NCBI RefSeq assembly: GCF_009818105.1
Contig: NZ_CP046564.1
Location: 4,154,001 to 4,218,000 of the forward strand
Reading direction: 5' to 3'
Length of the DNA stretch: 64,000 nucleotides
Origin: Bacillus sp. N1-1
GTDB lineage: Bacteria; Bacillota; Bacilli; Bacillales; Guptibacillaceae
Below, one piece after another: positions 655 to 39,132 of this stretch. The translations under genes were made by a program, and so were the position numbers. The notes beneath the pieces were generated by a model. That model saw nothing but the letters and a program-made list of their open reading frames with translations. It made no database searches and was not told where the DNA came from. Positions within the stretch are counted from its first letter, which is position 1; each line of letters begins with the position of its first letter.

Positions 655-1058
655 TTGGAGAACCCTCATTTTGTGTTCTTTTTGGGGGTCTGGTTCGAGC
701 CTGACCCCTTCCTTCCTCTATTCCCCCTCAAACCCTTTAATGATAAGGCTTTGAAGGAGATACTTACATTAATTTAAATATCAAAAGTGTCCCTAGAGGA
801 GGAACACTTTTCACTGTTTTGTCTTTTGGTGGGGTCAGGCTCGAGCCTGACCCCTCTCAACTATTTCCTCTTTTTCAAGTGTACAATATTTACATACTAT
901 CATATAGATCATGCCCCAAAGATTGTAAAGTTGGCCTATGTACTTTTTGCTATAATGCCTTGCACGGCTGATATCATTCAGTAAAAGAAACTTGTCCGCT
1001 TTTTCACATGTGGTGAGGGCAGAGAGGAATCACATCCCTTAACCCCGCCAATTTCTTA
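655..1058. other. Intergenic stretch filled mainly by a repeat element
   Basis: About 400 bases without a supportable gene. Bases 684-854 are a full copy of the palindromic interspersed element described separately. The rest is AT-rich. A TATAAT at 951-956 has no well-spaced -35 box, so I do not call a promoter. Confidence 0.6.
684..854 (+). repeat. Full-length palindromic interspersed element (REP-doublet type), copy 1
   Basis: About 171 bp. It starts with a degenerate palindrome (684-708), then about 75 nt of poorly conserved sequence, a hairpin with AAAAGTGTCC-like and GGAACACTTTT arms (784-810), a GTTTTGTCTTTT linker, and a perfect palindrome at 831-854 with GGGGTCAGGC arms around TCGA. 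The same order and near-identical length recur at 16969-17141, 18867-19038 and 38955-39132. Confidence 0.8.
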
Positions 1059-1469
1059 CTACCTTCTCTTCGTTAACATATACAAAAACCATACCGCATG
1101 GTTCTGCTCATCCGCTGCTGCTCTTTTGAACGTTTCTTTTATATACGGGTCCTGCGTTTGTTCAGCGATATTAAGATAGAAGTCGACTGTGTTTTGCTCA
1201 TCGTTAAAGGCTAGATCGAGACCTATTCTATAATCAGTGGCACATTCTTCAACGAGCTCGGGCTCATGCTGTCGGCCCGTTAGCTGCGTATAAATTTGTT
1301 GAAAAGCTCTGAAATGCTTCTTCTCATCCTGTCGAATTTCTTTAATACGGTTCTTTTCTGTTTCATTTGGTGCTAGTCTCGCTAACTTCTTATAGCATTG
1401 AATGGCGCTATACTGACCATTAATCGCAGTGGCAATATCATCTGCAAGAGTTCGGTAGAGATAAGACAT
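1059..1469 (-). CDS. Ferritin-like / rubrerythrin-type small protein
   Basis: 136 aa with the all-helical ferritin-like pattern. Two E/D-E-x-x-H type di-iron motifs can be seen: QDEKKHF near residue 50 and ADEQNHA near residue 120. Further acidic residues lie at the matching positions of the other two helices. An AAAGGAG ribosome binding site precedes the ATG at 1469. The size resembles B. subtilis YhjR-like and other rubrerythrin-family proteins, but there is no rubredoxin domain, so a peroxide-reductase role is not shown. It is separated from the dsbA-like gene upstream by a palindrome and a strong terminator, so it probably has its own promoter. Confidence 0.75.
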   Translation of the reverse strand: MSYLYRTLADDIATAINGQYSAIQCYKKLARLAPNETEKNRIKEIRQDEKKHFRAFQQIYTQLTGRQHEPELVEECATDYRIGLDLAFNDEQNTVDFYLNIAEQTQDPYIKETFKRAAADEQNHAVWFLYMLTKRR

Positions 1470-1520
1470 GAGCTCGCTCCTTTTGTTGGGGTGTATGGGT
1501 GTGTTTGGATACGATAGTGT

Positions 1521-1560
1521 ATTTGAGGGGGGTCAGGCACGTGCCTGACCCCCCTCAAAT
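1521..1560. repeat. Single copy of the palindromic element with extended arms
   Basis: A perfect 40-bp palindrome with no loop. The common core (GGGGGTCAGG and its complement around CACGTG) is extended on both sides by an arm unique to this locus, ATTTGAG on the left and CTCAAAT on the right. It lies between the ferritin-like gene and the dsbA-like gene and touches the terminator at 1560-1610. Confidence 0.85.
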
Positions 1561-1610
1561 ACAAAAACCGTGGATTGTCCGTCACAGACGGACAATCCAC
1601 GGTTTTTGTA
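1560..1610. terminator. Strong bidirectional terminator hairpin
   Basis: A 24-bp perfect stem (1560-1583 with 1587-1610) and a 3-nt loop. TTTTTGT follows the GC-rich part on either strand. It sits 20 bp past the stop of the dsbA-like gene and is its likely terminator. Confidence 0.85.
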
Positions 1611-1629
1611 ATTGCTCTCATTCCTTCTT

Positions 1630-2729: not shown

Positions 2730-2751
2730 GTAACATTCTCCTTTGTTTTGC

Positions 2752-2766: not shown

Positions 2767-2785
2767 GTTCATTTTCGAAAAAGAA

Positions 2786-4063: not shown

Positions 4064-4117
4064 TTAAATGGATGGAGGGGTCAAGAGGAATTGAGAGTGT
4101 TCTTCGTAGGAGGACGG

Positions 4118-4166
4118 TTGTATGTAAGGGGGGTCAGGCTCGAGCCTGACCCCCCTCTTCATACAA
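4118..4166. repeat. Single copy of the palindromic element, between blaI and sat
   Basis: Core palindrome at 4127-4156 (AGGGGGGTCAGGC arm and its complement around TCGA). A further locus-specific arm pair follows, TTGTATG at 4118-4124 and CATACAA at 4160-4166. Confidence 0.8.
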
Positions 4167-4258
4167 TCTTTTTTCCCATTCGCCCTCTCTTCTCCTCCTC
4201 TTCTTTCATAAGCTAGTAGCATCGATAATACATGAACGAGCAAGAAAGGAGATTATTT

Positions 4259-5398
4259 ATGATCGAACCACATGGCGGTCACCTGGTGAACCGCATTCCG
4301 TGTGAAGAAGATCGCCTGGTGCTGCTTGAGAAAGCCGCAATATTTCCAGCGATTACGTTAACACCATGGAATTTATCTGATTTGTATCTGATCGCAACCG
4401 GAGCCTTCAGTCCGTTAACGGGCTTTATGAACCGAACTGATTACCAGCACGTCCTAACGAAAATGCGGCTCGCAAATGGGACAATCTGGAGCTTGCCCAT
4501 TACACTTTCCGTTTCTGATGAAATGCGAGAACAAATATCTTTTAGCCCTACTGTTTGTTTAAAGGGGAATGACGGCGAAATCTACGGACTTATGGAAGTA
4601 GAAGATATCTATGAAACCAACAAACCTGAAGAAGCGCTATCGGTTTATGGAACGAACGATCCAGCTCATCCTGGTGTACAAAAAACGTACGAGCAGCCGG
4701 CTTTTAACCTTGGAGGACCGATCACCCTCCTTCAACATCCAAAGGCACTTCGGGAACTTTTTCACACTCCAGCTGAACTGAGGGAATTATTTCAACAACG
4801 TGGCTGGCAAACGATTGTAGGTTTTCAAACGCGCAATCCGATTCATCGCGCTCATGAGTATCTTCAAAAGACGGCACTTGAAACAGTTGATGGCCTTCTG
4901 ATCCATCCGCTCGTTGGTGAAACAAAAAAAGATGACATTTCAGCGGACATTCGCATGAAAAGCTATCGTACTCTTTTAGAAAACTACTATCCGGCCGACC
5001 GCGTTATTCTCTCCGTCTTTCCAGCCGCCATGAGGTATGCCGGCCCGCGTGAAGCCGTTTTTCATAGTCTTGTTCGGAAAAACTTTGGCTGTACCCATTT
5101 CATCGTTGGAAGAGACCATGCAGGCGTTGGTGACTTTTACGATACGTTCGCAGCTCAGACAATTTTTAACCAATTTGCAAAAGATGAAATCGGTATTGAG
5201 ATCATGGCCTTCGAACATGCTTTTTATTGTGAAAAATGTGGAAGTATGGCAACTTCCAAAACGTGTCCACACGACAGTGAATGTCACATTCACCTGAGCG
5301 GTACAAAAGTTCGAGAGATGTTGACCAATGGGCAGCGTCCACCAAAGGAATTTTCTCGACCTGAAGTGATCGACATTTTGATTAACGAGGTGCAATAG
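4259..5398 (+). CDS. sat: Sulfate adenylyltransferase (ATP sulfurylase)
   Basis: 379 aa. It makes adenosine 5'-phosphosulfate (APS) from ATP and sulfate. The signature [13 protein letters not shown] (ATP-binding HxxH) is near residue 195, and GRDHAGVG near 290. A C-terminal Cys/His cluster (YCEKCGSM...[20 protein letters not shown]) matches the bacterial Sat zinc-binding region. The start at 4259 is chosen because AAAGGAG is 7 nt upstream and the protein then opens MIEPHGG, as in other bacterial Sat proteins; an ATG at 4232 has no binding site. It is first in an operon with a permease and cysC, which together take up and activate sulfate. Confidence 0.95.
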
Positions 5399-5399
5399 C

Positions 5400-5444
5400 A
5401 TGACCCCGAAGAAACCTAATGCCGGCATCCTACTCTCACTATGA
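5400..5444 (+). CDS. 14-codon leader ORF coupling sat to the permease
   Basis: ATG at 5400 with GAGGTG in the last sat codons as ribosome binding site. It encodes MTPKKPNAGILLSL, and its TGA overlaps the permease ATG in an ATGA arrangement. The permease start itself has no visible Shine-Dalgarno sequence, so it may be translated by reinitiation after this mini-ORF. This is a proposal from sequence layout only; the peptide has no recognised function. Confidence 0.4.
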   Translation: MTPKKPNAGILLSL

Positions 5445-7192
5445 CTGCCTTCTATTTTGTTATCATCACCATGATCGCAATGCTAATCGGTCTTTTCTTT
5501 GAACTGGGACGGCCTGAGGTTATCCTCACTTCCGTTCTCGTCTTATTTCTTTTCACAGGCATTATTACGCCGGAGGAAGCGACGGTCGGATTCTCTAATG
5601 AAGGAATGCTCACCATCGCCCTTCTTTTCATTATTGCTGGTAGTATTCAGAAAAGCGGAATTGTCGACCGCACGTTTCTGCGTCTCCTAAAAGGGTCGTA
5701 TTCACCAAAGAAACGATTAGCCAAATTGCTCTTTCCTATTTCGATGATTTCCGCATTCGTGAACAATACGCCGATCGTCATCGCTTCCACGCCAATGGTG
5801 AAAAAATGGTGTATGGAAAACGGTGTTTCGCCTTCTAAATTTCTCATTCCGCTTTCTTACGCTACCATTCTCGGCGGCACGATTACGCTAATCGGGACAT
5901 CAACCAATTTGGTTGTTCACGGTCTTCTTGTTGAAAACGGCTATGCTGGCTTTTCTTTTTTTCAGCTTAGCGCTATTGGCATTCCAATCACATTACTCGG
6001 ACTCTTGTATTTGGTTCTATTTAGTCATCATCTGCTTCCAGGGCGCCGTATTTCTAATCTCTCTGAGCCAGTGCTTAAGGAATACACCGGTGAAGCACTC
6101 ATAACTGTCCAATTCCCTTATTTAAATCTTACGGTGAAGGAAGCGCAGTTAAGGAGCTTGAAAGGATTATTTCTCGTCAGTATTTTACGAAACGAACATG
6201 CGATAGCGCCCGTGTCAGGCAACACGATTTTAAAGGAAGGTGACCGCCTGGTGTTTAGCGGTGATATTTCAACAATCACCGATATTCAGCGGATGAAAGG
6301 GCTGGAACTTCAGGAAAGCACAGGTTCCTCTTTTCCAGATCATCATCGGCTGGTAGAAGGAATCGTCACCCATCATTCTTCCCACCTTTTTAAAAAGGTG
6401 AAAGACACCAATTTTAGAAGCCTCCATCAAGCCGCGGTGATTGCTGTTCATCGACACAACCAGCGTTTGCAAACGAAAATCGGTGATATTGTGTTAAAGC
6501 CTGGTGACGTGCTGTTAATGGTGACTGGAGAACAGTTTGATAAGAGAAACGATTTCTACGCCATTACACCAATCGATCATAAGCTTGTGTCCAATCGACA
6601 AATTCGAATGGGCTGGCTGTCGATCGGATGGCTCGGAATGATGATTGCCCTCGTCACGTTCAACGTTCTCTCAATGCTTACCGCGATGGCTGTGACCACA
6701 CTGCTACTCTTTTTAACAAAGCTTGTGACACCTGGCGAAGCGCGGGACCTCATTCAATGGAACGTTCTCTTGATGATCGCTTGTTCTTTCGGGATTGGAA
6801 CTGCGCTATTAAATTCAGGCGTGGCTACATCAATAGCTGATTTCTTAATTACGATCACCTACCCTTTTGGTCTTTTTGCCACGCTTCTCATGCTCTATTT
6901 AGTAACGAATGTCTTTACCGAAATGATGACAAATAGCGCCGCAGCCGTCTTTATGTTTCCGGTTGTGATGGAAGTGGCACGGACGCTTGAAGTTGAACTC
7001 ATGCCACTCGCTATCACTGTTGCGATCGCTGCCTCCGCAAGCTTCATGACGCCAATTGGCTACCAAACAAATTTAATTGTTTATGGCGCAGGTGGTTATC
7101 GGTTCCACGACTTTTTAAAAGTTGGATTCCCTTTAACCATCATTGTGATGGTGACCACATTAGTCCTTGTTCGATTTTATTTAATGGCTTAA
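5441..7192 (+). CDS. SLC13/ArsB-type sulfate permease with two TrkA-C (RCK_C) domains
   Basis: 583 aa. Hydrophobic helices lie in the first about 190 and last about 195 residues. Between them (about 200-375) is a soluble region with two TrkA_C/RCK_C-like repeats (LRSLKGLFLVSILR...LKEGDRLVFSGD and FRSLHQAAVIAVHR...LKPGDVLLMVTG). The motifs AFVNNTPIVIASTPMV and TLIGTSTNLVVHG, and later NSAAAVFMFPVV and PIGYQTNLIVYG, are the paired Asn-Ser/Thr regions of the DASS/SLC13 superfamily. Position between sat and cysC makes sulfate the likely substrate. It ends 18 bp before cysC, so the three genes form one operon. Confidence 0.88.
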   Translation: MTAFYFVIITMIAMLIGLFFELGRPEVILTSVLVLFLFTGIITPEEATVGFSNEGMLTIALLFIIAGSIQKSGIVDRTFLRLLKGSYSPKKRLAKLLFPISMISAFVNNTPIVIASTPMVKKWCMENGVSPSKFLIPLSYATILGGTITLIGTSTNLVVHGLLVENGYAGFSFFQLSAIGIPITLLGLLYLVLFSHHLLPGRRISNLSEPVLKEYTGEALITVQFPYLNLTVKEAQLRSLKGLFLVSILRNEHAIAPVSGNTILKEGDRLVFSGDISTITDIQRMKGLELQESTGSSFPDHHRLVEGIVTHHSSHLFKKVKDTNFRSLHQAAVIAVHRHNQRLQTKIGDIVLKPGDVLLMVTGEQFDKRNDFYAITPIDHKLVSNRQIRMGWLSIGWLGMMIALVTFNVLSMLTAMAVTTLLLFLTKLVTPGEARDLIQWNVLLMIACSFGIGTALLNSGVATSIADFLITITYPFGLFATLLMLYLVTNVFTEMMTNSAAAVFMFPVVMEVARTLEVELMPLAITVAIAASASFMTPIGYQTNLIVYGAGGYRFHDFLKVGFPLTIIVMVTTLVLVRFYLMA

Positions 7193-7210
7193 GGAAAGGA
7201 GAACGATTTG

Positions 7211-7813
7211 ATGAAAGAAAAACATATTACCTGGCACGAAGGAAGTGTGACGAAGCAGGATCGCGAAAAAATGAAGGAGCATAAAGGCGCCGTTCTCTGG
7301 TTTACAGGGTTATCCGGTTCCGGTAAATCAACGATAGCGGTTGAGCTTGAGAACGTTTTACACGTATCAGGTGTCCATACGTATCGGCTTGATGGCGATA
7401 ATGTGCGGCATGGGTTAAACCGGGATCTTAGCTTCAGTGATGATGACCGGGTCGAGAACATCCGGAGAATTGGTGAAGTGTCTCGGCTATTTGTTGATGC
7501 TGGACTGATGACCCTAACAGCCTTCATTTCTCCTTTTCAGAAAGACCGCGACATGGTTCGTTCTCTATTCGATGATGGGGAATTCATTGAAATTTTTGTA
7601 AAGGCAAGTCTTGAAGCATGTGAAAAGCGAGATCCAAAGGGTTTATATACAAAGGTCCGCCGAGGAGAGATTCATCAGTTTACCGGCATCGACTCTCCAT
7701 ATGAACCTCCTACTACTGCTCATATCGTTCTTGATACAGAAAAACTTACAGTAGATGAAGCTGTCCAGTCGATTGTGGCGTATTTGCAGAAGCATGAGTA
7801 TTTGAAAGGTTAA
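7211..7813 (+). CDS. cysC: Adenylylsulfate (APS) kinase
   Basis: 200 aa. It phosphorylates APS to 3'-phospho-APS (PAPS). The P-loop GLSGSGKST is near residue 35, with the family motifs [20 protein letters not shown] and [10 protein letters not shown] in the expected order. The length is standard for a stand-alone CysC. The GGAAAGGAGA site best serves the ATG at 7211; a TTG sits one codon earlier. It completes sulfate activation begun by sat. The next gene is a PAPS-using sulfotransferase remnant. Confidence 0.95.
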
Positions 7814-7868
7814 AACAATCAGGCTCTTTTTTAAACGTAAGGTTGACAATAAAATTGAAAAACTGGAC

Positions 7869-7895
7869 GTATGATGGTGAAAAGTTCCATCATAC
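7869..7895. promoter_or_regulatory. Inverted repeat upstream of the sulfotransferase remnant
   Basis: GTATGATGG and CCATCATAC (9-bp arms, 9-nt spacer) lie between cysC and the sulfotransferase start. A TTGACA occurs at 7843-7848 with a TATGAT at 7870-7875, but the spacing of 21 is long. It could be an operator or RNA hairpin; function unknown. Confidence 0.3.
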
Positions 7896-7923
7896 TCTAA
7901 TAGATTTAAGGAGGTTTTAAGGT

Positions 7924-8678
7924 TTGAGTCAGATTGAAAATCCACGCTTTTTCTTAAATTCAATCGCTAAAAGTGTACACATCTCTTAAAACAGCTGCTT
8001 CTTGGAATTCCTGGCATCAAATACAATTCTCAAATTGGGTTATACGGACATTACCATTATCAGACTGATGAAAAACTAAATCCAATTAAAAATCTTACAC
8101 CACATTCTTTTGCAAATGGGCACCTTCATTACTCAGTGGAATGGGAGACATTCTTCAAAGAACTCAATATGAAACAGGTCTTTGTATTGCGCGATCCGCG
8201 AGATTTATTGATTTCTTATGCTCACTTCATTCCTAAAACGCAAATAGACCACCTTTATCCTACTTTTACACAAGAAGGGTTCACACATCGTGATCGTATC
8301 AAGTTTCTGATAGAAGGAGGGCCACTTTTAGAGGATGGAAAGCCAGATCACCCAGGCATTCGAGAGTGGTATCAAAGCTTTTCAGGTTGGTTAAACCGTC
8401 CAAACGTGCACGCCATTCGCTTCGAAGATATGATTGCTTCTGCACAAATGAAGTGGAATACCACTGGAGAATTGCTTGATTTCCTATCTGATGGAGTCGA
8501 CAATCCACTTCATCGAGGAGACTGGATTACCGCAATGATTTCGAACATCCGACCAGAAGCCTCCGTTACATTCCGCAAAGGAAAAAGCGGTGGATGGAAA
8601 GATGAGATGGATGATGAACTCAAAGCACTGTTTCAAGCGCGAGCTGGAGATTTACTTGAAGAATTAGGGTATGAGTAG
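7924..8678 (+). pseudogene. Sulfotransferase-domain gene with a frameshift in the PAPS-binding loop
   Basis: AAGGAGG precedes a TTG at 7924 that opens LSQIENPRFFLNSIAKSVHIS and stops at 7987. From 7971 another frame continues KCTHLLKQLLLGIPGIKYNSQ... to a stop at 8678. Joined, they give NSI(P)KS(G)THLLKQ, the 5'-PSB loop of sulfotransferases, so about one base seems lost near 7974-7980. The distal part keeps QVFVLRDPRDLLISYAHF (the 3'-phosphate-binding region), a conserved RFEDM-type stretch and FRKGKSGGWKDEM near the end. A GTG at 8136 could start a shorter protein, but it would lack the loop. Position after cysC fits a PAPS-consuming enzyme. A sequencing error cannot be excluded. Confidence 0.75.
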
Positions 8679-8757
8679 AGATTTACTCTGTGCTTCTTCT
8701 TGCGGGCCTCTTTGTCACCACATTATCTTTTCTATTAAAAACAATTTAGTGCTATTC

Positions 8758-8831
8758 AAAGAGTCCTTCTATGAGGGACTTTTTGCTTGTTTTGTTTTCA
8801 AAGGGGGTCAGGCTCGAGCCTGACCCCCTTT
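8758..8831 (+). repeat. Partial palindromic element (hairpin, linker and palindrome)
   Basis: Hairpin AAAGAGTCC/GGGACTTTTT (8758-8784), a TGTTTTGTTTTC linker and a 32-bp palindrome at 8800-8831 (AAAGGGGGTCAGG arms around CTCGAG). It is the right-hand half of the full element. The hairpin with its T-run could end transcription of the sulfotransferase remnant. Confidence 0.75.
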
Positions 8832-9205
8832 CGCACCCCACCCCACCATTTACCACCTCTTTTTCTTCTCTTCAACCCCCACCGCAATGCCTTTTGTACT
8901 ACTTTTTAATGAGATAAATTTCGTTAATGAAAACGCACAAAAAATGTAATCATTTTGTAATAATTGTATTTAAATCCTTCCTGTTTTTCAGAAAACCCTT
9001 ACACATCAAGGAAACTTTCATTACAAAAGTTTTGTTAATTAGGAAAAGATGTCTTAAAAATGGCTCTTTACTGTTTATTAGGAAATAGTGGTAGTTTCAA
9101 GCTATTCAGACCGAGGTATATTCCGATTAATCAACGTTCAACTCTACTACAAAAATCCAGTTCAAAAGTCACGTATCGACTATTCGTGTTTAAAGGAGTG
9201 AAATC
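8832..9205. other. AT-rich leader region of the gas-vesicle operon
   Basis: No gene seen. After a C-rich stretch (8832-8890) the sequence is very AT-rich up to the gvpA ribosome binding site. A sigma-A-like promoter candidate is listed at 9032-9060. The about 145 nt between it and gvpA would be an untranslated leader; I see no strong hairpin there. Confidence 0.5.
9032..9060 (+). promoter_or_regulatory. Candidate sigma-A promoter of the gas-vesicle operon
   Basis: TTGTTA at 9032-9037 and TAAAAA at 9055-9060 with a 17-bp spacer. The -10 match is mediocre. No convincing sigma-B or sigma-D pair was found in the same region. Confidence 0.35.
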
Positions 9206-9466
9206 ATGAGTATTCAAAAAAGCGCCGATAGCTCGAGTCTTGCGGAAGTGATTGACCGTATTCTCGATAAAGGGATTGTGATTGATGCATTTGCGAGAGT
9301 TTCTCTTGTTGGGATTGAAATTCTAACGATTGAAGCTCGCGTCGTGATTGCAAGTGTGGATACATGGCTTCGTTACGCAGAAGCCGTCGGATTACTTCGA
9401 GATGAGGTACAAGAAGAAGGTCTGGCGAAGCAAAGTAACGATCGCGCACCACAGTTTAGTGTTTAG
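9206..9466 (+). CDS. gvpA: Gas vesicle major structural protein GvpA
   Basis: 86 aa. It has the highly conserved GvpA core: [54 protein letters not shown], broken here only for description. This small amphiphilic protein polymerises into the ribs of the gas-vesicle shell. AAAGGAG lies 8 nt upstream of the ATG. It is the first gene of a 14-gene operon whose order equals that of P. megaterium. A near-identical paralogue, gvpB, lies 1 kb downstream; they differ at few positions in the core and mainly in the last 13 residues. Confidence 0.97.
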
Positions 9467-9498
9467 TGAATCCATTTTAATAGAGATGAGGGAAAAAC

Positions 9499-9984
9499 AT
9501 GAGTGAAAACGATGTGAATCATACAAGCGGAAAAATCTTATCGCAGCCGGAAAACGGTGAGAACGCGAAACAAGAATCGAGTGAACGCCCATCAATGAAC
9601 TACGCCATCATTGGTGGTGTTGTTGGCGCCGGGGTTGGCTTACTCTCAAATCCTGGAACAGGCAAAAAAGTCGTTGAAAGCCTCGGCAAATCCGAAGCGG
9701 TAAGAAATGCCGGTAAGGAACTAAGAAGATCGGCACAAGAATTCATAACAGAACAAGCGATGATTACGTTAAGGCAAACGGCGACTGGCTACATGAGTAA
9801 ATATGAAGGGCGTCTCCTTTCACCAACGAAAAAGGGTGGTGGAGAACAGCAACAAGCGAATGAGGAAGTTGCGGCTTCATCCTCTAATGAAGAAATCGAT
9901 GAAATTAAAGAAGAAAACAAGCAGTTAAACGATCGGTTAGACCGAATCGAAAACATGCTTTCTAGCTTAGTAGATTCAAAATAA
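9499..9984 (+). CDS. gvpP: Gas vesicle protein GvpP (YtxH-like, coiled coil)
   Basis: 161 aa. After a polar N-terminus, a glycine-rich hydrophobic segment (YAIIGGVVGAGVGLLSNPGTGKK, about residues 33-56) resembles YtxH/GvpP proteins. Next comes a charged helical region, and the C-terminus is a predicted coiled coil (EIDEIKEENKQLNDRLDRIENML). It occupies the gvpP position between gvpA and gvpQ. The role in P. megaterium operons is accessory and poorly defined. The C-terminal heptads suggest an oligomerising protein; gvpJ and gvpT here end in similar segments. Confidence 0.8.
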   Translation: MSENDVNHTSGKILSQPENGENAKQESSERPSMNYAIIGGVVGAGVGLLSNPGTGKKVVESLGKSEAVRNAGKELRRSAQEFITEQAMITLRQTATGYMSKYEGRLLSPTKKGGGEQQQANEEVAASSSNEEIDEIKEENKQLNDRLDRIENMLSSLVDSK

Positions 9985-10009
9985 CAGACGTCCCTTAAGG
10001 GGGAATTCG

Positions 10010-10468
10010 ATGAGTGTCGGCAAGAAAATTGCAAAGAAGGTCGTAGAGCATACGCCAGAGCCGGTTAAAGAAAAGGTCATGGATAAAGCGAAGGAAAAAT
10101 TCGCTGATGATATGCAGGATTACGTGCAGAACGGCGTGCAGTCAAAAGTAAAAGAAGCTTCCGAGAAATTAGAGAAAACTAAAGAGGAAAATGCTGAAAA
10201 CGTTCATTCTAAAGCAGAAGATGCGAAAGAAAAAGTACAAGATGTGCTTTTATCTGTTCGTGAAAAGCTCGGAAATGCAAAAGAAGCTGGCGAAGAATTT
10301 CAGGAAAAAATGTCCGATTCTGATCAGAAGAAGACAAAGGTAAAAGGCCCCGGAAGTCTTAAAGGTGTCAGTGATATCAAAAGTTCACTCGACATTAAAA
10401 GCTCCACTGAAATCAAAAGCTCGGAAAACATTAAATCGTCGAAAGACATTAAACGGATAACATCTTAA
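10010..10468 (+). CDS. gvpQ: Gas vesicle protein GvpQ with C-terminal hexapeptide repeats
   Basis: 152 aa, highly charged, Lys/Glu-rich and mostly helical ([21 protein letters not shown]...). The last 30 residues are a tandem array with a period of six residues: [28 protein letters not shown]. Assigned by position (A-P-Q-B) and composition; GvpQ proteins diverge quickly. AAGGGGG lies before the ATG. No enzymatic motif is seen. A structural or chaperone-like role in vesicle assembly is inferred from the operon only. Confidence 0.75.
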
Positions 10469-10488
10469 AGAATGAAAGGAGAATGATG

Positions 10489-10749
10489 ATGGCTATTCAA
10501 AAAAGTGCCGATAGTTCAAGTCTTGCTGAGGTAATCGACCGTATTCTTGATAAGGGGATTGTCATTGACGCTTTTGCTCGTGTCTCTGTTGTAGGAATTG
10601 AGATTCTTACGATTGAAGCTCGCGTCGTTATTGCAAGTGTTGATACATGGTTGCGTTATGCAGAAGCGGTTGGTTTGCTTCGTGATGACGTGCAAGAAGA
10701 AGGTCTTGCGAACCAGCAGAATGAGCGTAACGCACAGTTTAGTATTTAA
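10489..10749 (+). CDS. gvpB: Gas vesicle structural protein GvpB (second GvpA copy)
   Basis: 86 aa and nearly the same as GvpA. Core changes include SLVG to SVVG and LRDE to LRDD, and the tail is [13 protein letters not shown]. Three ATG codons are clustered at 10483, 10486 and 10489. The third is best spaced (7 nt) from AAAGGAG and gives the same length as GvpA. In P. megaterium gvpB is the main rib protein gene of the cluster; which copy dominates here is unknown. DNA identity to gvpA is lower than protein identity, so the duplication is not recent. Confidence 0.95.
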
Positions 10750-10804
10750 CTGAAATCAATTGTGAGGCGGTTCGCCGCCTCCCCTATTACGATAGGAGGA
10801 CACT

Positions 10805-11071
10805 ATGGAAATCAAGGAAATTATGAATCAAGTAGCCGATTTTTTTAACCAGCATGTAGCTCCTCTCCATAAAATTACTTCCGTCGAAATGAATGAACAA
10901 GAAGGCTGGAAAGTGATTGCAGAGGTCATTGAAGAAAAAGAATATATGAAAAAGTACGCAAAAGATGAAATGCTCGGAACGTATGAAGTGCTTTTAAACA
11001 ATGAAAAAGAAGTGGTCTCTTTCTCGAGACGTGATGTGCGCTATCGAAGTGCGATCGGACAAGAAATGTAG
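10805..11071 (+). CDS. gvpR: Gas vesicle protein GvpR (GvpO family)
   Basis: 88 aa. It begins IKEIMNQVADFFNQHVAPLHKITSVEMNEQEGWKVIAEVIEEKEYMKKYAKDEMLGTYEVLLN. The WKVIAEVIEEKEYM segment and the ending SFSRRDVRYRS are typical of the GvpO/GvpR family (Pfam GvpO). GATAGGAGG precedes the ATG. It sits directly before gvpN, as in P. megaterium. The homologous haloarchaeal GvpO is required for vesicle formation; here the role is inferred. Confidence 0.85.
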   Translation: MEIKEIMNQVADFFNQHVAPLHKITSVEMNEQEGWKVIAEVIEEKEYMKKYAKDEMLGTYEVLLNNEKEVVSFSRRDVRYRSAIGQEM

Positions 11072-11094
11072 GCGACGAGCAGGAGGTATGTGAC

Positions 11095-12009
11095 GTGACC
11101 GTTTTAACTAATCACAAGAAAAAGGATCGACGAGCGCTTATACAGGATGACGAAACAAAGGAACTGCTCTCACGTTCACTTCAGTACCTGAAATCCGGCT
11201 ATCCTGTCCACTATATCGGCCCATCTGGTGCTGGAAAAACATCTCTTGCCCTAGCTTTAGCAAAAAAGCGAAATCGTCCGGTGATGCTTATCCACGGAAA
11301 TCATGAATTAAACAACAAAGATTTAATCGGTGATTTTACTGGTTATACAAGTAAAAAAGTCGTCGATCAATATGTTCGATCGGTTTATAAGAAAGACGAA
11401 AGTGTGACGGAAACGTGGCGAGATGGACGCTTATTGGAAGCTGTAAAAAATGGCTATACGCTCGTCTATGATGAATTTACGCGTTCACAGCCAACGACAA
11501 ATAACCTTTTCCTATCGATTCTTGAAGAAGGTATTCTCCCATTATACGGTTCCAAGCTAACGGAACCTTTTATCCGCGTTCATCCTGCATTCTCGGTTAT
11601 TTTTACAAGTAATCCCGCCGAATATGCCGGTGTTTATCGAACGCAAGATGCCTTATTAGATCGCCTAATTACGATCAATGTCGATTACAAGGATCCTGAA
11701 CGCGAGGCGCTAATCGTATCTGAGAAGGCGAACCTGGTAATCAGTGAAGCACGTGCGGTTACTTCCATGATCTCAGAGTTACGGAGCCATTGTTCGAATG
11801 GTTATGGACCTAGTTTGCGCGCTTCCATGATGATCGCCACCCTCGCGATTGAATCTGATATTCCCATAGATGGACAAAATGCTGATTTTCAACGTCTATG
11901 TCTTGATATAACAGCTCACACGATGAGCGAATGCTTAGAAGAAGACCAAGAATCCGTAGAAAAAGTGATACGAAATGCTTGTGAAAACATGAAAGTTGTT
12001 GAGGAATAA
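11095..12009 (+). CDS. gvpN: Gas vesicle AAA+ ATPase GvpN (MoxR-like)
   Basis: 304 aa. Walker A GPSGAGKTS is near residue 45, Walker B (GYTLVYDEFTRS) near 125, sensor 1 TSNPAEYAG near 180, and an arginine-finger-type DALLDRLI near 195. This is the MoxR-type AAA+ layout of GvpN. It probably drives remodelling during vesicle growth. The start is a GTG at 11095, with AGGAGG 8 nt upstream. Length is near the usual 300-310 aa. It ends 14 bases before the gvpF start. Confidence 0.95.
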   Translation: MTVLTNHKKKDRRALIQDDETKELLSRSLQYLKSGYPVHYIGPSGAGKTSLALALAKKRNRPVMLIHGNHELNNKDLIGDFTGYTSKKVVDQYVRSVYKKDESVTETWRDGRLLEAVKNGYTLVYDEFTRSQPTTNNLFLSILEEGILPLYGSKLTEPFIRVHPAFSVIFTSNPAEYAGVYRTQDALLDRLITINVDYKDPEREALIVSEKANLVISEARAVTSMISELRSHCSNGYGPSLRASMMIATLAIESDIPIDGQNADFQRLCLDITAHTMSECLEEDQESVEKVIRNACENMKVVEE

Positions 12010-12022
12010 AGGAGTGTCAACG

Positions 12023-12790
12023 ATGAGTGAAGCAGAAACAACAGGCATATACATTTTTTGTGCCATTCAAACGAACCAGGATGATGATTTTGGAACGGTT
12101 GAGCTTGAAAATGAAACGCGTGACATTTTTACGATTCGCTATAAAGATGCCGCAATGGTGGCCGCAGAAGTGCCGATGAAAATCTATCATCCAAAGAAAG
12201 ATAATCTCTTAACGCACCAGAACGCGGTCTCTCAAGTGATGAGTCAGAAAGATACGGTCATTCCGATTAGCTTCGGAAATGTATTTAAATCGAAAGACGA
12301 TGTGAAGGTTCTACTTGAAAACCTCTATCCGCAGTTCGTGAACCTTTTCCCGAATATTAAAGGCAAAATCGAAGTCGGGTTAAAAGTGATTGGTAAAAAA
12401 GAATGGCTTGAAGCCGCTGTGAACGACAACCCTGAGGTAGAGAAAATGGCAGCAGCTGTCAAAGGAAAATCAGAAGCTGCTGGGTATTATGAGCGCATTC
12501 AGCTCGGGGGAATGGCGCAAAAGTTCTTTGCCTCCCTTCAAAAAGAAATTGAACAGGAGATCTTCGTTCCATTAGAAGAAACAGCAGAGTCGGCGAAAGC
12601 AAATGACCCACTTGGTGAAAAAATGCTCTTAAATGCTTCTTTTCTCATTGACCGTGATCGTGAGGAGGAATTTGATCAGAAAGTAAATGAAGCTCATGAA
12701 AAGTGGAAAGACAAAGTTGATTTTAACTACACTGGACCATGGCCAGCTTACAACTTTGTCAATATTCACTTAAAGGTAGAAGAAGCCTAA
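12023..12790 (+). CDS. gvpF: Gas vesicle protein GvpF
   Basis: 255 aa of the GvpL/GvpF family. It opens TGIYIFCAIQTNQDDDFGTV and ends DFNYTGPWPAYNFVNIHLK, the family's conserved GPWPxYxF terminus. AAAGGAG at 12008-12014 sets the ATG at 12023; upstream in-frame codons overlap gvpN and have no binding site. GvpF and GvpL act as assembly factors that bind GvpA at the growing end in other systems. The stop overlaps the gvpG start (TAATG). A separate paralogue, gvpL, follows gvpG. Confidence 0.93.
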   Translation: MSEAETTGIYIFCAIQTNQDDDFGTVELENETRDIFTIRYKDAAMVAAEVPMKIYHPKKDNLLTHQNAVSQVMSQKDTVIPISFGNVFKSKDDVKVLLENLYPQFVNLFPNIKGKIEVGLKVIGKKEWLEAAVNDNPEVEKMAAAVKGKSEAAGYYERIQLGGMAQKFFASLQKEIEQEIFVPLEETAESAKANDPLGEKMLLNASFLIDRDREEEFDQKVNEAHEKWKDKVDFNYTGPWPAYNFVNIHLKVEEA

Positions 12791-13050
12791 TGATTCAAAA
12801 ACTGGTTACCGCGCCCTTTGATCTTGTCATTAAAGTCGGTGAGAAAATTAAAGAAGAAGCTGATAAAGAATTATACGATCTCCCTACCATTCAAAAGAAG
12901 TTAATTCAGCTTCAAATGATGTACGAGCTTGGCGAACTGCCAGAAGATGCTTATACGGAAAAAGAAGAAGAATTGCTGTTGCGCTATGAAATTGCGAAGC
13001 GCCGTGAAATGGAACAATGGGAAGAATTAACGAAAAAAGATGGAAGGTGA
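12790..13050 (+). CDS. gvpG: Gas vesicle protein GvpG
   Basis: 86 aa. It opens with the family's conserved hydrophobic stretch (KLVTAPFDLVIKVGEKIKEEADKELYD) and continues as a charged helix rich in Glu (ELPEDAYTEKEEELLLRYEIAKRREME). The ATG shares one base with the gvpF stop, so translation is coupled. It lies between gvpF and gvpL, and the three products are known to work together in vesicle assembly in other organisms. No enzymatic residues are expected. Confidence 0.92.
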   Translation: MIQKLVTAPFDLVIKVGEKIKEEADKELYDLPTIQKKLIQLQMMYELGELPEDAYTEKEEELLLRYEIAKRREMEQWEELTKKDGR

Positions 13051-13054
13051 CGAT

Positions 13055-13858: not shown

Positions 13859-13882
13859 TGAAGACAGTGAGGATGAATTGCT

Positions 13883-14164
13883 ATGACGGTACGAGAAACC
13901 ATTGAAAATAAAGACATTGCCCTTATCGATATTTTAGACGTCATTCTTGATAAAGGGGTGGCGATTAAAGGAGACTTAATCATTTCCATTGCCGGGGTTG
14001 ACCTCGTCTACCTCGACTTACGCGTACTGATCTCATCTGTAGAGACGCTCGTGCAGCACAAACAGGGCACTCGAAAAACAATAAACTCAGAACAATTTGA
14101 TCGAGAAAGGGAGGCTTTGGATCATGCAGCAGCAGAACCCGACGAGTGGTCGCATCAACGTTGA
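13883..14164 (+). CDS. gvpS: Gas vesicle protein GvpS (GvpA/J/M family)
   Basis: 93 aa. It has the GvpA-like fold signature: IALIDILDVILDKGVAIKGDLIISIAGVDLVYLDLRVLISSVETL. The changes from GvpA match GvpS/GvpM-type minor proteins. The last 41 bases overlap gvpK in another frame; the tail EALDHAAAEPDEWSHQR lies in this overlap. It is thought to be a minor shell or tip component that nucleates assembly (family knowledge). Confidence 0.9.
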   Translation: MTVRETIENKDIALIDILDVILDKGVAIKGDLIISIAGVDLVYLDLRVLISSVETLVQHKQGTRKTINSEQFDREREALDHAAAEPDEWSHQR

Positions 14165-14408: not shown

Positions 14409-14435
14409 TTCGTTTCAGGTAAAGGAGGCATTTGG

Positions 14436-14759: not shown

Positions 14760-14778
14760 TTTATTGGAGGGATTTATC

Positions 14779-15708: not shown

Positions 15709-15735
15709 TAACCTGCACCGAAAGGAGAAGTGAAT

Positions 15736-16122: not shown

Positions 16123-16130
16123 GTTTAATT

Positions 16131-16968: not shown

Positions 16969-17141
16969 GTAGGGGGTCAGGCTCGTGTCTGACCCCCTAC
17001 CCCTCTCATTGTGCGCAATCTCTTACTGCGTAAGGGGTTTGCAGCTGGAATGCTTCACAATTAATGTGAAAAAGTGTCCTTTGGAGGAGGACACTTTTGT
17101 TGGTTTTGTGTTTATGGGGGGTCAGGCTCGCGCCTGACCCC
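16969..17141 (+). repeat. Full-length palindromic interspersed element, copy 2
   Basis: 173 bp. Imperfect palindrome at 16969-17000 (GTAGGGGGTCAG arms), about 70 nt that align by eye with copy 3, hairpin AAAAGTGTCC/GGACACTTTT (17070-17098), a GTTTTGTG linker, and palindrome 17118-17141 with a CGCG centre. The right edge is 6 bp from the amylase stop, so the element probably provides its terminator. Copy 3 lies in the same orientation on the other side of the amylase gene. Confidence 0.85.
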
Positions 17142-18866: not shown

Positions 18867-19038
18867 GGTAGGGGGACAGGCTCGTGCCTGACCCCCTACC
18901 ACTTTCATTTTGCTAAAAATCTTACTGTATAAGGGATCAGCTTTGGAATTTGCCATAATCAATTTGAAAAAGTTTCCTCTCGTTAAGGACACTTTTGTTG
19001 GTTTTGTCTTTATGGGGGTCAGGCTCGCGCCTGACCCC
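18867..19038 (+). repeat. Full-length palindromic interspersed element, copy 3
   Basis: 172 bp. Palindrome 18867-18900 (GGTAGGGGG and CCCCCTACC outer arms, one T-to-A change in the left arm), a 70-nt middle resembling copy 2 (both contain TTACTG, then TAAGGG, then TTTGAAAAAG or TGTGAAAAAG), a degenerate hairpin (GAAAAAGTTTCC/GGACACTTTT), a GTTTTGTCTTT linker and palindrome 19015-19038 with a CGCG centre. Its right palindrome runs into the next gene and supplies that gene's last codons and stop. Confidence 0.85.
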
Positions 19039-19859: not shown

Positions 19860-19941
19860 TGGAGTGTCCACAATACGTGGATTATTTTGCTATTATTGGG
19901 CGATTTGTCTTTGAAGGGGGTCAGGCTCGAGCCTGACCCCC
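19860..19941 (+). repeat. Partial palindromic element next to D-serine dehydratase
   Basis: A degenerate hairpin region (GGAGTGTCCACAATACGTGGATTATTTT), a CGATTTGTCTTTG linker and a perfect palindrome at 19916-19941 with GGGGGTCAGG arms. The palindrome ends 13 bp from the dsdA stop. Confidence 0.7.
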
Positions 19942-21250: not shown

Positions 21251-21290
21251 TAATAGGGGACAGAGAGGGGTCTGACCCCTTCCCCCTATT
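21251..21290. repeat. Short form of the palindromic element
   Basis: Centre GGGGTCTGACCCC at 21267-21279, where the two core arms meet directly as if the middle were deleted, within outer arms AATAGGGGA and TCCCCCTATT. It lies between dsdA and the terminator of the transglycosylase gene. Confidence 0.6.
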
Positions 21291-23336: not shown

Positions 23337-23398
23337 AAAAGTGTCCACCTGTGGTGGACACTTTTGGGTGTTTTGTCTTTTAGAGGGGTCTGACCCCC
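23337..23398 (+). repeat. Partial palindromic element at the 3' end of the NlpC/P60 gene
   Basis: Perfect hairpin AAAAGTGTCCACC/GGTGGACACTTTT (23337-23365), a GTTTTGTCTTTT linker and the short palindrome GGGGTCTGACCCC at 23385-23397. It ends directly against the stop of the minus-strand gene at 23400. Confidence 0.8.
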
Positions 23399-23399
23399 A

Positions 23400-36737: not shown

Positions 36738-36870
36738 ATTTCATCCCCCCGGATATGTAGTCTAATTTTGGTGATAGTCCCACCAATTGTCAGTATACAA
36801 TAACTTTCGACTCATATGTGTAAAAATAGCGTAAATTGTCTAACTTTAGAATGCGCTTACATTTTATGAA

Positions 36871-36960
36871 GGGGGTCAGGCTCGAGCCTGACCCCCCTTA
36901 AAGACAAAACCACTATTATCACCCCATTTGTCCGCGCTGACGGGACACCACTCATTATAA
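36871..36960 (-). repeat. Partial palindromic element in inverted orientation
   Basis: Palindrome 36871-36896 (GGGGGTCAGG arms around CTCGAG), then on the minus-strand reading the GTTTTGTCTTT linker (36899-36911) and a degenerate GTGTCC...GGACA hairpin (about 36925-36953). This is the only clear copy with the linker on the right. Confidence 0.7.
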
Positions 36961-37127: not shown

Positions 37128-37273
37128 AAGAGGCAGGTTTATCTTCTTCTCTCTTACATCACTTCCCTGATGGGTTGGATCCATCATGCTCTAGTTAGGG
37201 AAAGATGTTCTTGAAGATCCTTGAGGGATCAAATCACGGAATGCTTGCGAAGGTTTTTCATTGTTTGATGGTT

Positions 37274-38131
37274 TCAGAGAATAGGAATAATCTCATTTTC
37301 AATTGATTCAAAACTATAATAAGGACATATACCTTGATTGATTAGACAGTTTGTCCCCTGCCTAAATCGAGCGTCATTGCTTATAAAAACAAAGACTTTT
37401 TTTGCATGCTTTCGAGCAAAGTGAGCGGTCGTCATCGCACCACTTTTTACGTTAGCTTCCATGATCACAACATGACTTGACCATGCACTGATTAACGCGT
37501 TTCGCTGAATAAATTGTTTTGGTGTAGGTGCTGTGCCAGGTGGATACTGCGAGATGACAGCGCCTTCATTAATGACTGCTTCGTAGAGCGAGCGGTGCTC
37601 TTTCGGGTAACAGTCATCAACCCCAGTTGCAACAAAAGCAATCGGTTGCCCACTATTTGCGAGGCAGGCAGTGTGAGCAGCATAATCGATGCCTTTCGCG
37701 AGACCGCTAACGACAGGTATGCTCAGGCTTGAGAGTCTGGTGGATAACTCTTCCGCAGCACGTCGTGCGTGATTGGAACAAGAACGAGAACCAACAATAC
37801 CGACAGAAGGTAAGCATGGTTTGATATGACCTTTGACGTATAAAAGAACTGGCGATTCAGCAACATCTTTTGCATAACTCGGATATAGCGGGTCATCCCG
37901 GGGTAAAAGCCAGATCTCCTTTTGCTGAACAAGTTCAAGAATCCGCTTCGATTTCTCAAGAGATCGCGTAGCCTCAATGGCTTCGCGTGCACGACGAGAG
38001 ATTCCTACTTCCTTAAGTTCAGATGGAGAGGCGTTATAGACTCGTTCTGGATTTCCGAAAGTGCCCAATAGTTTCTTTTGCGTTATAGGGCCCACGTACG
38101 GAATCGAACTTAGCCAGATCCAGCGCTCCAT
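37274..38131 (-). CDS. dprA: DNA-processing protein DprA (Smf)
   Basis: 285 aa. An N-terminal helix-hairpin-like region (MERWIWLSSIPYVGPITQKKLLGTFG) is followed by the Rossmann-like DprA core: VGIVGSRSCSNHARRAAEELSTRL, VVSGLAKGIDYAAHTACL, PIAFVATGVDDCYPKEHRSLYE, FIQRNALISAWSSHVVIMEANVKSGAMTTAHFARKH. There is no C-terminal winged-helix domain, as in B. subtilis DprA. It binds single-stranded DNA entering by transformation and loads RecA. It is not next to topA or sucD here as in many bacilli. A RAYT gene ends 46 bp upstream on the same strand with no terminator between them. Confidence 0.93.
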   Translation of the reverse strand: MERWIWLSSIPYVGPITQKKLLGTFGNPERVYNASPSELKEVGISRRAREAIEATRSLEKSKRILELVQQKEIWLLPRDDPLYPSYAKDVAESPVLLYVKGHIKPCLPSVGIVGSRSCSNHARRAAEELSTRLSSLSIPVVSGLAKGIDYAAHTACLANSGQPIAFVATGVDDCYPKEHRSLYEAVINEGAVISQYPPGTAPTPKQFIQRNALISAWSSHVVIMEANVKSGAMTTAHFARKHAKKVFVFISNDARFRQGTNCLINQGICPYYSFESIENEIIPIL

Positions 38132-38177
38132 TCATTCACTTCTCTTTCATTATAAATTTTAGAGTAAGGCGCTTTAT

Positions 38178-38795
38178 TTACTGCGGTAAATTGGAGAGCA
38201 GATAAACCTTTTTTCCTTTCCATTCTGGCAATTCTTTCACAAGGTCTGGTGGTAAAAACGGCTCTTCATTTTCGACGTACCGCTGATAAGCTTCACGAGA
38301 AGGTTTTTGAAACAGTGAAAGTATGTAATCAGGGTAAGCGTGCGGATTCTTTCGATATGAAATATAAGCACGATAACTGCTCCACATATAGTCCGCTGGC
38401 TTTACAACCATTCGGGCTTTAACTGGATTAAGGTGAATGTATTTACTTACGTCAATTTCATAATCAATTGAATCAAGCAGTTCAGCATTGTAGCGACCTT
38501 GAAAAACGTGGCCTGTGTACTCATATTTGTCGTTGAAATATCTAGCATAGTTGGAGTTGATCACTTTCATGATTTCACCAGGGGGATGGTCGAAGGTTTC
38601 GATGGAGAGATGCACATGGTTAGTCATGAGACAGTATACGTGTAGGCGAAATGGAAAGGTGAGACGAGCTTGTTCTAGAATTTGAAAATACTTTTGACGA
38701 TCAATTCGTTCTTCAAACAATGGTGCTTTTCGATTTCCACGGCAGATAATATGATACTTTGCACCAGGAAACCAGGTTCGTTTCTTACGAGGCAT
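38178..38795 (-). CDS. REP-associated-type tyrosine transposase (RAYT, Y1_Tnp/IS200-like)
   Basis: 205 aa. It opens MPRKKRTWFPGAKYHIICRGN and has the HUH motif in YCLMTNHVHLSIE (near residue 60). Next is the probable catalytic Tyr region in NYARYFNDKYEYTGHVFQGRYNAE, then VSKYIHLNPVKARMV and MWSSYRAYI, all typical of RAYT proteins. Such HUH enzymes nick single-stranded hairpins of REP sequences. There is no tnpB and there are no IS200/605 ends. A full copy of the window's palindromic element (38955-39132) starts about 160 bp upstream of its ATG. AAAGGAG precedes the start. The frame is intact, so it may be active. Confidence 0.9.
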   Translation of the reverse strand: MPRKKRTWFPGAKYHIICRGNRKAPLFEERIDRQKYFQILEQARLTFPFRLHVYCLMTNHVHLSIETFDHPPGEIMKVINSNYARYFNDKYEYTGHVFQGRYNAELLDSIDYEIDVSKYIHLNPVKARMVVKPADYMWSSYRAYISYRKNPHAYPDYILSLFQKPSREAYQRYVENEEPFLPPDLVKELPEWKGKKVYLLSNLPQ

Positions 38796-38954
38796 TCGAA
38801 TTACTCCTTTGGCAAGGAAAATGGGGAATTTCTACTATAGCGGGGCTGATAATTGTAGTATACCACTTTTCAAGAATTTGGGAATAGTTAATTAATAAAT
38901 TATTCAGAAATATTTTTTAGTTGTTTTGAAGGAAAATGAAGAGAGAGGTAATAG

Positions 38955-39132
38955 AGGAGTGTGAGGGGGTCAGGTACGAACCTGACCCCCTCACACTCCT
39001 TTATCCCGCAAACCCATATCCACCATAGCTTTTCAGCTTATTAAAGGTAATTTGCTAATGAAAAAGTGTCCACCTGAGGTGGACACTTTTGGGGTGTTGT
39101 CTTTTGGAGGGGTCAGGCTCGAGCCTGACCCC
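38955..39132 (+). repeat. Full-length palindromic interspersed element, copy 4 (next to RAYT)
   Basis: 178 bp. The left palindrome 38955-39000 has a perfect 21-bp stem and a 4-nt loop, whose outer part AGGAGTGTGA is unique to this copy. The hairpin AAAAGTGTCCACC/GGTGGACACTTTT spans 39062-39090, followed by a GTGTTGTCTTTT linker and right palindrome 39109-39132. The right end is 22 bp from the amylopullulanase stop. Confidence 0.85.

Follow-up and report, generated by a model that had tools for sequence, protein, structure and literature searches.

A Palindromic Repeat Family around a RAYT–DprA2 Locus of Bacillus sp. N1-1, and the Neighborhood of RAYT, ComM, and DprA2 Genes in Bacillales

Introduction

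REP-associated tyrosine transposases (RAYTs) flanked by repetitive extragenic palindromes (REPs) are already known, and the copy number of REPs is usually above 100 (PMC2817692). The TnpAREP protein of Escherichia coli is described as cutting between C and T, either 5′ or 3′ of its REP (PMC8266576). The TIRtrons and TIRYTs, described in 2013, consist of a RAYT-like gene flanked by longer repeats that carry a GGGGWSAS motif, are in some cases self-complementary, and occur in the genome as dimers or groups (PMC3733652). The same source lists GTAG and CGTC repeats for other phyla; its description of TIRtrons names no ComM or DprA partners, and the word Firmicutes does not occur in its main text. 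ComM is presented as the canonical transformation helicase of Gram-negative bacteria, and RadA as a protein that in Firmicutes, too, takes part in transformation (PMC11612176). Here, we analyze a stretch of 64,000 nucleotides (hereafter the window) of the genome of Bacillus sp. N1-1, which contains a family of palindromic repeats, a RAYT gene, and a second DprA gene (DprA2) directly behind it. The system is of a REPtron/TIRtron-like kind and has a link to recombination genes. RAYTs and REPs being known as such, the new part is the link of RAYT to DprA2 and to ComM.

No report joining a RAYT, or a REP-associated tyrosine transposase under that name, with DprA or ComM was found in the literature, although an earlier one is possible, the literature on RAYT groups having been incompletely covered. 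A search combining YifB, transposase, and REP gave a sole match, unrelated by title, and the listed matches to "GGGGTCAGGC" were also unrelated by title. The neighborhood with ComM and DprA gives a direct, testable lead to the reason for which RAYTs are retained and to the way in which REPs spread.

Results

The RAYT–DprA2 Locus

The RAYT gene sits between palindromes at 36872 and 38966. The features of the locus are as follows (window coordinates; the bit scores of repeats are those of a covariance model of the full unit described below).

36869..36960, minus strand: right end behind RAYT-DprA2, with palindrome 36872–36895, GTTTTGTCTTT linker, and decayed GTCC/GGAC hairpin (49.7 bits)
37274..38131, minus strand: DprA2, the second DprA, 285 aa, ~46 bp behind RAYT (PF02481, 6e-60)
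38178..38795, minus strand: RAYT, 205 aa, HUH and Tyr motifs intact (PF01797, 2.4e-13)
38966..39132, plus strand: full unit upstream of RAYT, whose left palindrome is the one nearest to the RAYT start (171.6 bits)

The score of RAYT with NF047646 (REP_Tyr_transpos) is 56.7 bits, under the cut-off of 80, and a search of PDB sequences with this protein gave no match. Residues H60, H62, and Y119 are invariant in 11 sequences; a HUH pair with a catalytic Tyr in a YIHxNP block is what we take to be the hallmark of RAYTs. DprA2 scores 202.5 bits with PF02481, far over the cut-off, and 185.7 bits with TIGR00732, against a cut-off of 191.15. Its best solved matches are ordinary DprA structures (3uqz, 3.8e-32; the second at 9.4e-31). 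The other of the two DprA genes of the genome, at 1.947 Mb, is 31% identical to it. Between the flanking palindromes, RAYT and DprA2 are the only listed open frames of at least 90 aa, and we infer that the two are co-transcribed as an operon. An earlier note on the window, which described the repeats, had neither the RAYT gene at 38178–38795 nor a transposase link to DprA or ComM.

This genome has two further, more distant Y1 transposases. They were rejected as owners of the repeats, as no palindrome of the family lies beside either and their flanks look like other palindromes. By eye, these two genes (L019 and L020) adjoin palindrome-like sequences of the GAACCGTCCC and GTGCCTGTCAC types, perhaps two more REP families.

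ComM in the Wider Order

An alignment search with RAYT gave 34 loci in named genomes, 8 of which have the orthologue of the window RAYT with DprA2. In the other 26, all outside the genus, ComM adjoins RAYT in 17, and DprA2 then follows ComM in 5 of these 17. ComM also adjoins 6 of 18 further RAYT loci of the order (L189–L206, 1.5-kb flanks). Among 397 genomes drawn from the order, a set that overlaps in part with the named loci, 166 have RAYTs of this kind (E ≤ 1e-45), 91 have ComM (E ≤ 1e-50; 76 over the TIGR00368 cut-off), and 23 have DprA2-like proteins (E ≤ 1e-60), 13 of them of this genus and 10 of others. In seven of these ten, RAYT is clustered with ComM and DprA2, in either order, with a broken form in G083; in G186, G137, and G074, RAYT is not in the DprA2 gene cluster. 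The identity of the middle protein as ComM/YifB was confirmed with NCBIfam (TIGR00368) in all six cases tested (535–565 bits, cut-off 362.4), and the Cytobacillus ComM (L089) matches a ComM of known structure (8rxd, 2.3e-97).

The association is closer when one starts from ComM. Eighty ComM loci (L244–L323) were examined, namely the 30 best and 50 more, with matches below ~440 bits excluded save one and the two ComM copies of L281 counted once; RAYTs were searched there by tblastn with three query types (E ≤ 1e-6). A RAYT lies within 600 bp of ComM in 63 of the 80 loci and at 0.9–2.1 kb in 5, and was not seen in 12. All 63 neighbors are on the same strand as ComM, no more than 200 bp separate the matched parts in 60, and a stop inside the matched part is found in 3. 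By contrast, the 30 best ComM loci from 329 genomes of other classes of the phylum had no RAYT in their flanks (1.5 kb at most) by this tblastn, which could miss very divergent RAYTs. About 0.2 RAYT neighbors per 80 ComM loci would be expected by chance, given 254 Y1 transposases in 65 ComM-bearing genomes (E ≤ 1e-5), where 254 is an undercount, one RAYT seen by tblastn not being included. The link between RAYT and ComM/DprA is well supported as a gene neighborhood. In this order, ComM seems as a rule to have a RAYT within 600 bp on the same strand, independently of the palindromes of the window.

ComM-linked RAYTs are found in all three RAYT types, and the ComM label requires 18 changes on the RAYT tree, against 31.3 when shuffled, at least 8 of them being forced by well-supported branches. 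This tree (118 rows) was made by a quick method and has long branches; rows shorter than 150 aa or with stops were left out, and some genes, present at two loci, appear twice. The distances between ComM proteins correlate modestly with those between their RAYTs (r = 0.298, reached in 0 of 5000 permutations; 56 of the 63 pairs). In the genus of the window, the window genome and nine others have no ComM, and in G003, G004, G009, and G011 it is present and adjoins another RAYT type. Two ComM genes occur on one contig in G011 (L291 and L292, with a RAYT beside each) and in G109 (L281). The operon of RAYT and DprA2 in the window thus resembles a RAYT-ComM-DprA2 arrangement that lacks ComM.

The flanks of 41 RAYT-ComM loci of other genera were compared, and a word of at least 13 bases is shared by both sides in 10, with a mean of 2.7 and a maximum of 8 for swapped flanks. 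The flanks of L323, for example, share CGGGGGTCAGGCCCC, and those of L319 share a word with GGTGACAGGCACC. With just 10 of 41 sharing words on both sides, these flanks were rejected as sites of the repeat family of the window. The evidence that ComM-linked RAYTs go with REPs is thus weak, and with so few shared words the repeat may be a different one for each RAYT. When the flanks of 15 ComM-DprA2 loci were scanned for hairpins, no common signal emerged. In L135, L136, L137, and L139, an SSB-like gene lies a few kb from ComM-DprA2 (with a family search match in L136 alone), as does a further gene that is YwpF-like by eye and had no NCBIfam match in L136; the neighborhood may hold more single-strand proteins.

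The Repeat Family in the Window and Its Genome

The repeats of the window outside the RAYT locus are the following.

684..854, plus strand: full unit of palindrome, spacer, GTCC/GGAC hairpin, TTTTGTCTTT linker, and palindrome (168.3 bits, G000:C1:4154682-4154857, a row used in model building)
1527..1605, minus strand: inverted right half, with palindrome 1529–1552, linker, and long GTCC/GGAC hairpin with a T-run
4111..4155, plus strand: single palindrome 4130–4153 with a GGAC..TTGT motif before it; gene-content junction versus G009 and G006
8758..8830, plus strand: right half, with hairpin, linker, and palindrome (76.6 bits at 8663–8830); gene-content junction versus G010
16969..17141, plus strand: full unit, left border of an alpha-amylase cassette (161.9 bits)
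18867..19038, plus strand: full unit, right border of the alpha-amylase cassette (144.9 bits)
19860..19940, plus strand: partial copy, with decayed hairpin, linker, and palindrome 19917–19940
21256..21286, strand not assigned: degenerate palindrome core GGGGTCTGACCCC
23337..23398, plus strand: right half with shortened palindrome GGGGTCTGACCCC (63.2 bits at 23266–23400)

The genome (G000) consists of one contig of 4,497,340 bases, of which the window covers 4154001–4218000. The pattern GGGGTCAGGCNNNNGCCTGACCCC, with up to two mismatches, finds 39 palindrome places in it, against none for the reversed pattern, and the repeat family is real in this genome. The window holds 13 of the 39, all left of 39.2 kb; there is none by this pattern from 39.2 to 64 kb, and the next place in the genome is ~152 kb beyond 39132. 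Nineteen places cluster at 4.12–4.20 Mb, the region of the window, in an array that begins ~26 kb left of it, and the others are at 3.78–3.85 Mb, at 1.33–1.44 Mb, and in two single places. The cluster at G000:C1:1330000-1445000 (L021–L024) has many palindromes with a TACGTA loop and lacks the hairpin unit; similar TACGTA runs occur in G003 and G004. The covariance model finds five full units in the genome, four in the window and one about 4.6 kb to its left. With a looser pattern, 20 of the 22 palindromes in the 84 kb of G000 that were examined are intergenic.

Most of what the earlier note had read from the window agrees with these results. Alignment bears out the places and the order of elements of its four full copies (starting at 684, 16969, 18867, and 38955), although its lengths of 171–178 bp include flank and the measure from palindrome to palindrome is 167–170 nt. 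Its partial copies were likewise found, at 8758, 19860, and 23337 and, in inverted orientation, at 36871, and the last copy in the window ends at 39132, in line with the lack of copies it had reported from there on. The palindromes it called lone near 1521 and 4118 exist but are not alone, the palindrome at 1529–1552 having an inverted linker and a GTCC/GGAC hairpin beside it and that at 4130–4153 the GGAC..TTGT motif before it, and the one at 21251 is the degenerate core GGGGTCTGACCCC, outside the two-mismatch count. That the family "fills" the left 39 kb was too strong, since copies occupy mostly intergenic spots among ordinary genes. The array also reaches beyond the window. Both outcomes that it had named as refuting were looked for and not found: further copies exist in the genome, as counted above, and with the covariance model the order of elements is found kept in 10 other genomes.

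Anatomy of the Unit

Twenty-one full units from this genome and its relatives align over 178 columns (A4, from which the reverse reading of one unit had been dropped). The order is a left palindrome GGGGTCAGG(N)6CCTGACCCC, a weakly conserved spacer of ~70 nt, a hairpin AAAAGTGTCC..GGACACTTTT, the TTTTGTCTTT linker, and the right palindrome. Both palindromes are symmetric and at a fixed spacing, and the hairpin and linker accompany the right one only. Hence, the orientation of the left palindrome is undefined, and the unit has distinct left and right ends. The earlier identification as a REP doublet, or bacterial interspersed mosaic element (BIME), fits in part: the REP-type character is supported, and of the two inverted REPs at a fixed spacing that make up a BIME or REPIN the fixed spacing is seen, while the distinct ends bring the unit closer to a short, non-autonomous form derived from a RAYT element than to a pair of inverted REPs. 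The REP type itself is supported by a single-copy RAYT lying between two palindromes, by its orthologue placed likewise in other species, and by the small number of intact palindromes where this RAYT is lost. As the ends of the RAYT-DprA2 locus are the same as the left and right ends of the 170-nt unit, the unit seems to be derived from that locus in shortened form.

The shorter copies retain the right side, i.e., the GGAC motif, TTGTCTTTG, and the palindrome, and several have a long stem and T-run resembling a terminator (1568–1602 in the window and four copies at 4131–4138 kb of the genome). Over the 31 pairs of the three helices, the covariation score is 0.133, against 0.078 when shuffled (none of 500 as high) and 0.029–0.083 for sliding partners, and 5 pairs are changed on both sides. 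GTAG directly precedes GGGG in 3 of the 39 copies; the rest vary, GAAG being the commonest with 5. The consensus start of the palindrome, GGGGTCAG, fits the GGGGWSAS motif of TIRtrons. In all, the family adds a new member to the RAYT-associated repeats, its unit being unusual and its local clustering strong.

Pseudalkalibacillus Relatives

The nearest named records are mostly Pseudalkalibacillus, with some named Alkalihalobacillus or Bacillus. The RAYT orthologue is present in 12 of 15 genomes of the family, one in each, at 74%–97% identity, in keeping with a single-copy gene passed on vertically, and DprA2 is directly behind it in all 12. The palindrome is found in the RAYT locus of all 12 and on both sides in 10, L037 and L046 having no downstream copy within the fetched flank. 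Among the other three genomes, G013 has a RAYT fragment with a stop beside an intact DprA2, G007 has no RAYT orthologue that could be found and a 79-aa remnant of DprA2, and G001, of another genus, has a nearest RAYT only 54% identical. The dN/dS values are 0.08–0.21 for RAYT and 0.18–0.30 for DprA2, in the 30 of 55 pairs listed for each (the RAYT of L042, with a stop, was left out of alignment A2, and the DprA2 of L038, with one stop, out of A3). Both genes are under purifying selection in Pseudalkalibacillus.

Intact palindromes, counted as GGGGTCAGG, six free bases, and CCTGACCCC with at most one mismatch (the reversed control giving 0 throughout), number 23, 27, 34–40, and 45 in the 12 RAYT-bearing genomes, and 9 in G007, 2 in G013, and 0 in G001. 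Full units were defined as covariance-model matches of at least 110 bits, because many of the matches at E = 0.01 are to a palindrome only or in reverse; 150 candidates were scored per genome. There are 37 of them in 11 Pseudalkalibacillus genomes, 21 being rows used in model building and 16 new, and at this threshold none in G002, G007, G013, or G001. All 37 are on the strand opposite to RAYT and within ~46 kb of it. Many are the same inherited places, and so the 37 units are not 37 events. In G008 (L073), the left palindrome of a full unit on the minus strand (10618–10792) directly abuts the end of a tandem run of TTCTTTGATGGTG.

Gene-Content Junctions

The 40–100 kb around the RAYT locus were compared in 13 genomes, a clean difference having at least 400 bp on one side and at most 60 on the other. 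Among 73 pairwise junctions, 59 are at a palindrome, against 11.5 expected. When each short-genome junction is counted once, 27 of 39 sites are within 25 bp of a palindrome, against 6.0 expected if sites are placed randomly in intergenic DNA; none of 20000 draws reached this number, the largest giving 16. Of the 12 sites without a palindrome, 7 come from a single 4.8-kb insertion in G005. In the window, G009 lacks 4154–16121 and G010 lacks 8832–16163, both spans including the gas-vesicle genes, and G006 lacks the stretch from the palindrome at 4130 to that at 8804. The amylase gene bounded by the units at 16969 and 18867 is absent from G010 and from G009, where there is a single unit. The recombination genes beside such transposases, DprA2 here and ComM in many related bacteria, hint that the repeats may be sites of gene swapping in and out.

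The gas-vesicle genes, at 11095–15708, code for two GvpF/L, GvpG, a GvpA-like protein, and an AAA protein, and their span aligns to G008.

The variable segment has a palindrome at both ends in 8 of the 27 sites, at the left end only in 17, at the right end only in 1, and at neither in 1, as counted on one representative pair per site, from which other pairs of the same site can differ. Junctions lying just 3′ of palindromes were seen, and this left-end preference, which plain repeat recombination does not predict, fits a cut on the 3′ side of the palindrome; it is a lead and no proof.

Other Features of the Window

At 21328–44722, several large proteins follow one another among the palindromes and next to them (SLT, SleB-like, M6 protease, ExeM-like nuclease, and a pullulanase of 1855 aa). 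Some of these carry CWB2 or S-layer-type repeats, which probably explain many of the other direct repeats of the window. An Rfam scan of the window at gathering scores gave a sole match, a c-di-GMP-I riboswitch at the far right (51624–51722; 51 bits, gathering score 35).

Discussion

A Possible Path from RAYT to Recombination

It is probable, in our judgment, that the palindromes constitute a REP/TIR family belonging to the resident RAYT, that the 170-nt unit is a short non-autonomous element, and that the RAYT cut is handed to recombination proteins. When the region becomes single-stranded, RAYT would bind the folded palindrome and cut beside it, by analogy with the RAYTs that have been studied. 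The cut strand would then be passed, in a putative hand-over, to the recombination proteins encoded alongside. DprA is known to load RecA, and DprA2 would load it on the cut strand; in many other Bacillales, ComM would drive branch migration. REPs may have moved by this route in the past, and they would be places where neighboring DNA is lost or gained. The biochemistry of ComM and DprA on single strands and branched DNA is known, and the work of RAYT may end in RecA-type recombination. A joint action of RAYT, DprA2, and ComM is likely on this evidence. It is doubtful that the three constitute one machine, with the REP arrays as programmed exchange sites for cassettes such as the gas vesicles, the amylase, and others; if this were true, the REPs would serve a dedicated recombination pathway of Bacillales as its address system and would be more than transposase debris. 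The link also suggests a role for ComM in Bacillales, within a group of bacteria where RadA acts in transformation, and it offers a reason for the changes in gene content falling on palindromes in this region.

Several observations weigh against this reading. The junction sites are not independent, and merged by position on this genome they come to ~11 places with a palindrome and 5 without. The two other Y1 transposases of the genome do not have these palindromes alongside, and the genome has no ComM. Many RAYTs of the order are without ComM (166 RAYT genomes versus 91 ComM genomes), and 12 of the 80 ComM loci are without a visible RAYT. A stop lies inside the RAYT match in G014 and inside DprA2 in G008, and the intact DprA2 beside the RAYT fragment of G013 indicates that DprA2 can be kept without RAYT. 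G002 has RAYT and 23 palindromes, yet no full unit. Loose matches (E = 0.01) number 85 in G007, 16 in G013, and 2 in G001, against 33–100 in RAYT-bearing genomes, and a looser palindrome pattern gives 16 in 80 kb of G007, which lacks RAYT. Hence, the link with RAYT holds for intact copies and not for decayed ones, which persist without it. Most units are at identical places in the near relatives compared and give no sign of recent movement. Finally, two of the five pair measures of the fold are unremarkable, both-side changes being as high in 15 of 500 shuffles and further pair types in 389 of 500.

Alternative Explanations

It is quite possible that the junctions at palindromes arise by homologous recombination between repeats or by hairpin slippage, RAYT having spread the repeats long ago and being now uninvolved. 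Deletion between direct repeats predicts the 8 of 27 palindrome sites with a palindrome at both ends; the amylase cassette has a full unit on either side where G009 has a single one; and the units are mostly inherited at fixed places in near relatives. However, plain recombination between repeats requires that each end carry a copy and would favor neither side, and therefore the 17 left-only sites, against 1 right-only and 1 with neither, count against it, even though these sites are non-independent and scored on representative pairs.

We consider it rather unlikely that RAYT, ComM, and DprA2 are passengers of mobile DNA, or share an insertion hot spot, without joint function. ComM is patchy (91 of 397 genomes), the order of the two genes is variable (of 56 pairs, 26 have RAYT ahead of ComM and 30 the reverse), DprA2 outlives RAYT in G013, and many RAYTs have no ComM, all of which one would expect of passengers. 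One would not expect the same strand in 63 of 63 neighbors with 60 at most 200 bp apart in their matched parts, the involvement of all three RAYT types, or the purifying selection on RAYT and DprA2 in Pseudalkalibacillus.

It is very improbable that selection for transcription termination, and not a transposable element, gave the units their likeness: the long hairpins followed by T-runs and the mostly intergenic position (20 of 22) would suit terminators, but the sharing of a 24-bp palindrome with a second, T-less palindrome at a fixed spacing, and scarcity where one transposase is missing, would not be expected of them. It is hardly credible that DprA2 is an antitoxin-like partner in a defense or addiction module and not a recombination mediator, for although one of its seven solved matches is ShosA, a named DprA-like antitoxin protein, the top two are ordinary DprA and no third listed frame of at least 90 aa lies with RAYT and DprA2 between the palindromes.

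Comparison with Known Systems

Elements of the IS200/IS605 group and their short derivatives have two hairpin ends. The system of the window resembles them in this respect and in that its full units have one orientation relative to RAYT. Unlike them, its transposase is single-copy and of the REP type, and there is no sign of recent movement of the gene.

With REPtrons and with REP-BIMEs and TnpAREP, the system shares a Y1 transposase with conserved HUH and Tyr motifs, its own flanking palindromes, and many intergenic copies (PMC2817692, PMC8266576). It differs from them in that the GTAG tag is found in only 3 of 39 copies, in the copy number itself, which is 39 here and 23–45 in RAYT-bearing genomes instead of more than 100, in the grouping of copies in local clusters, and in having a recombination gene directly behind the transposase.

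With TIRtrons, as described, it shares a RAYT-like gene with flanking repeats, and GGGGTCAG fits their motif (PMC3733652). Unlike those of TIRtrons, the repeats of the window also form a 170-nt unit with an inner hairpin, they are found in Bacillales, and DprA2 lies behind the transposase. ComM, the canonical transformation helicase in Gram-negative bacteria according to PMC11612176, is in Bacillales found mostly beside a RAYT.

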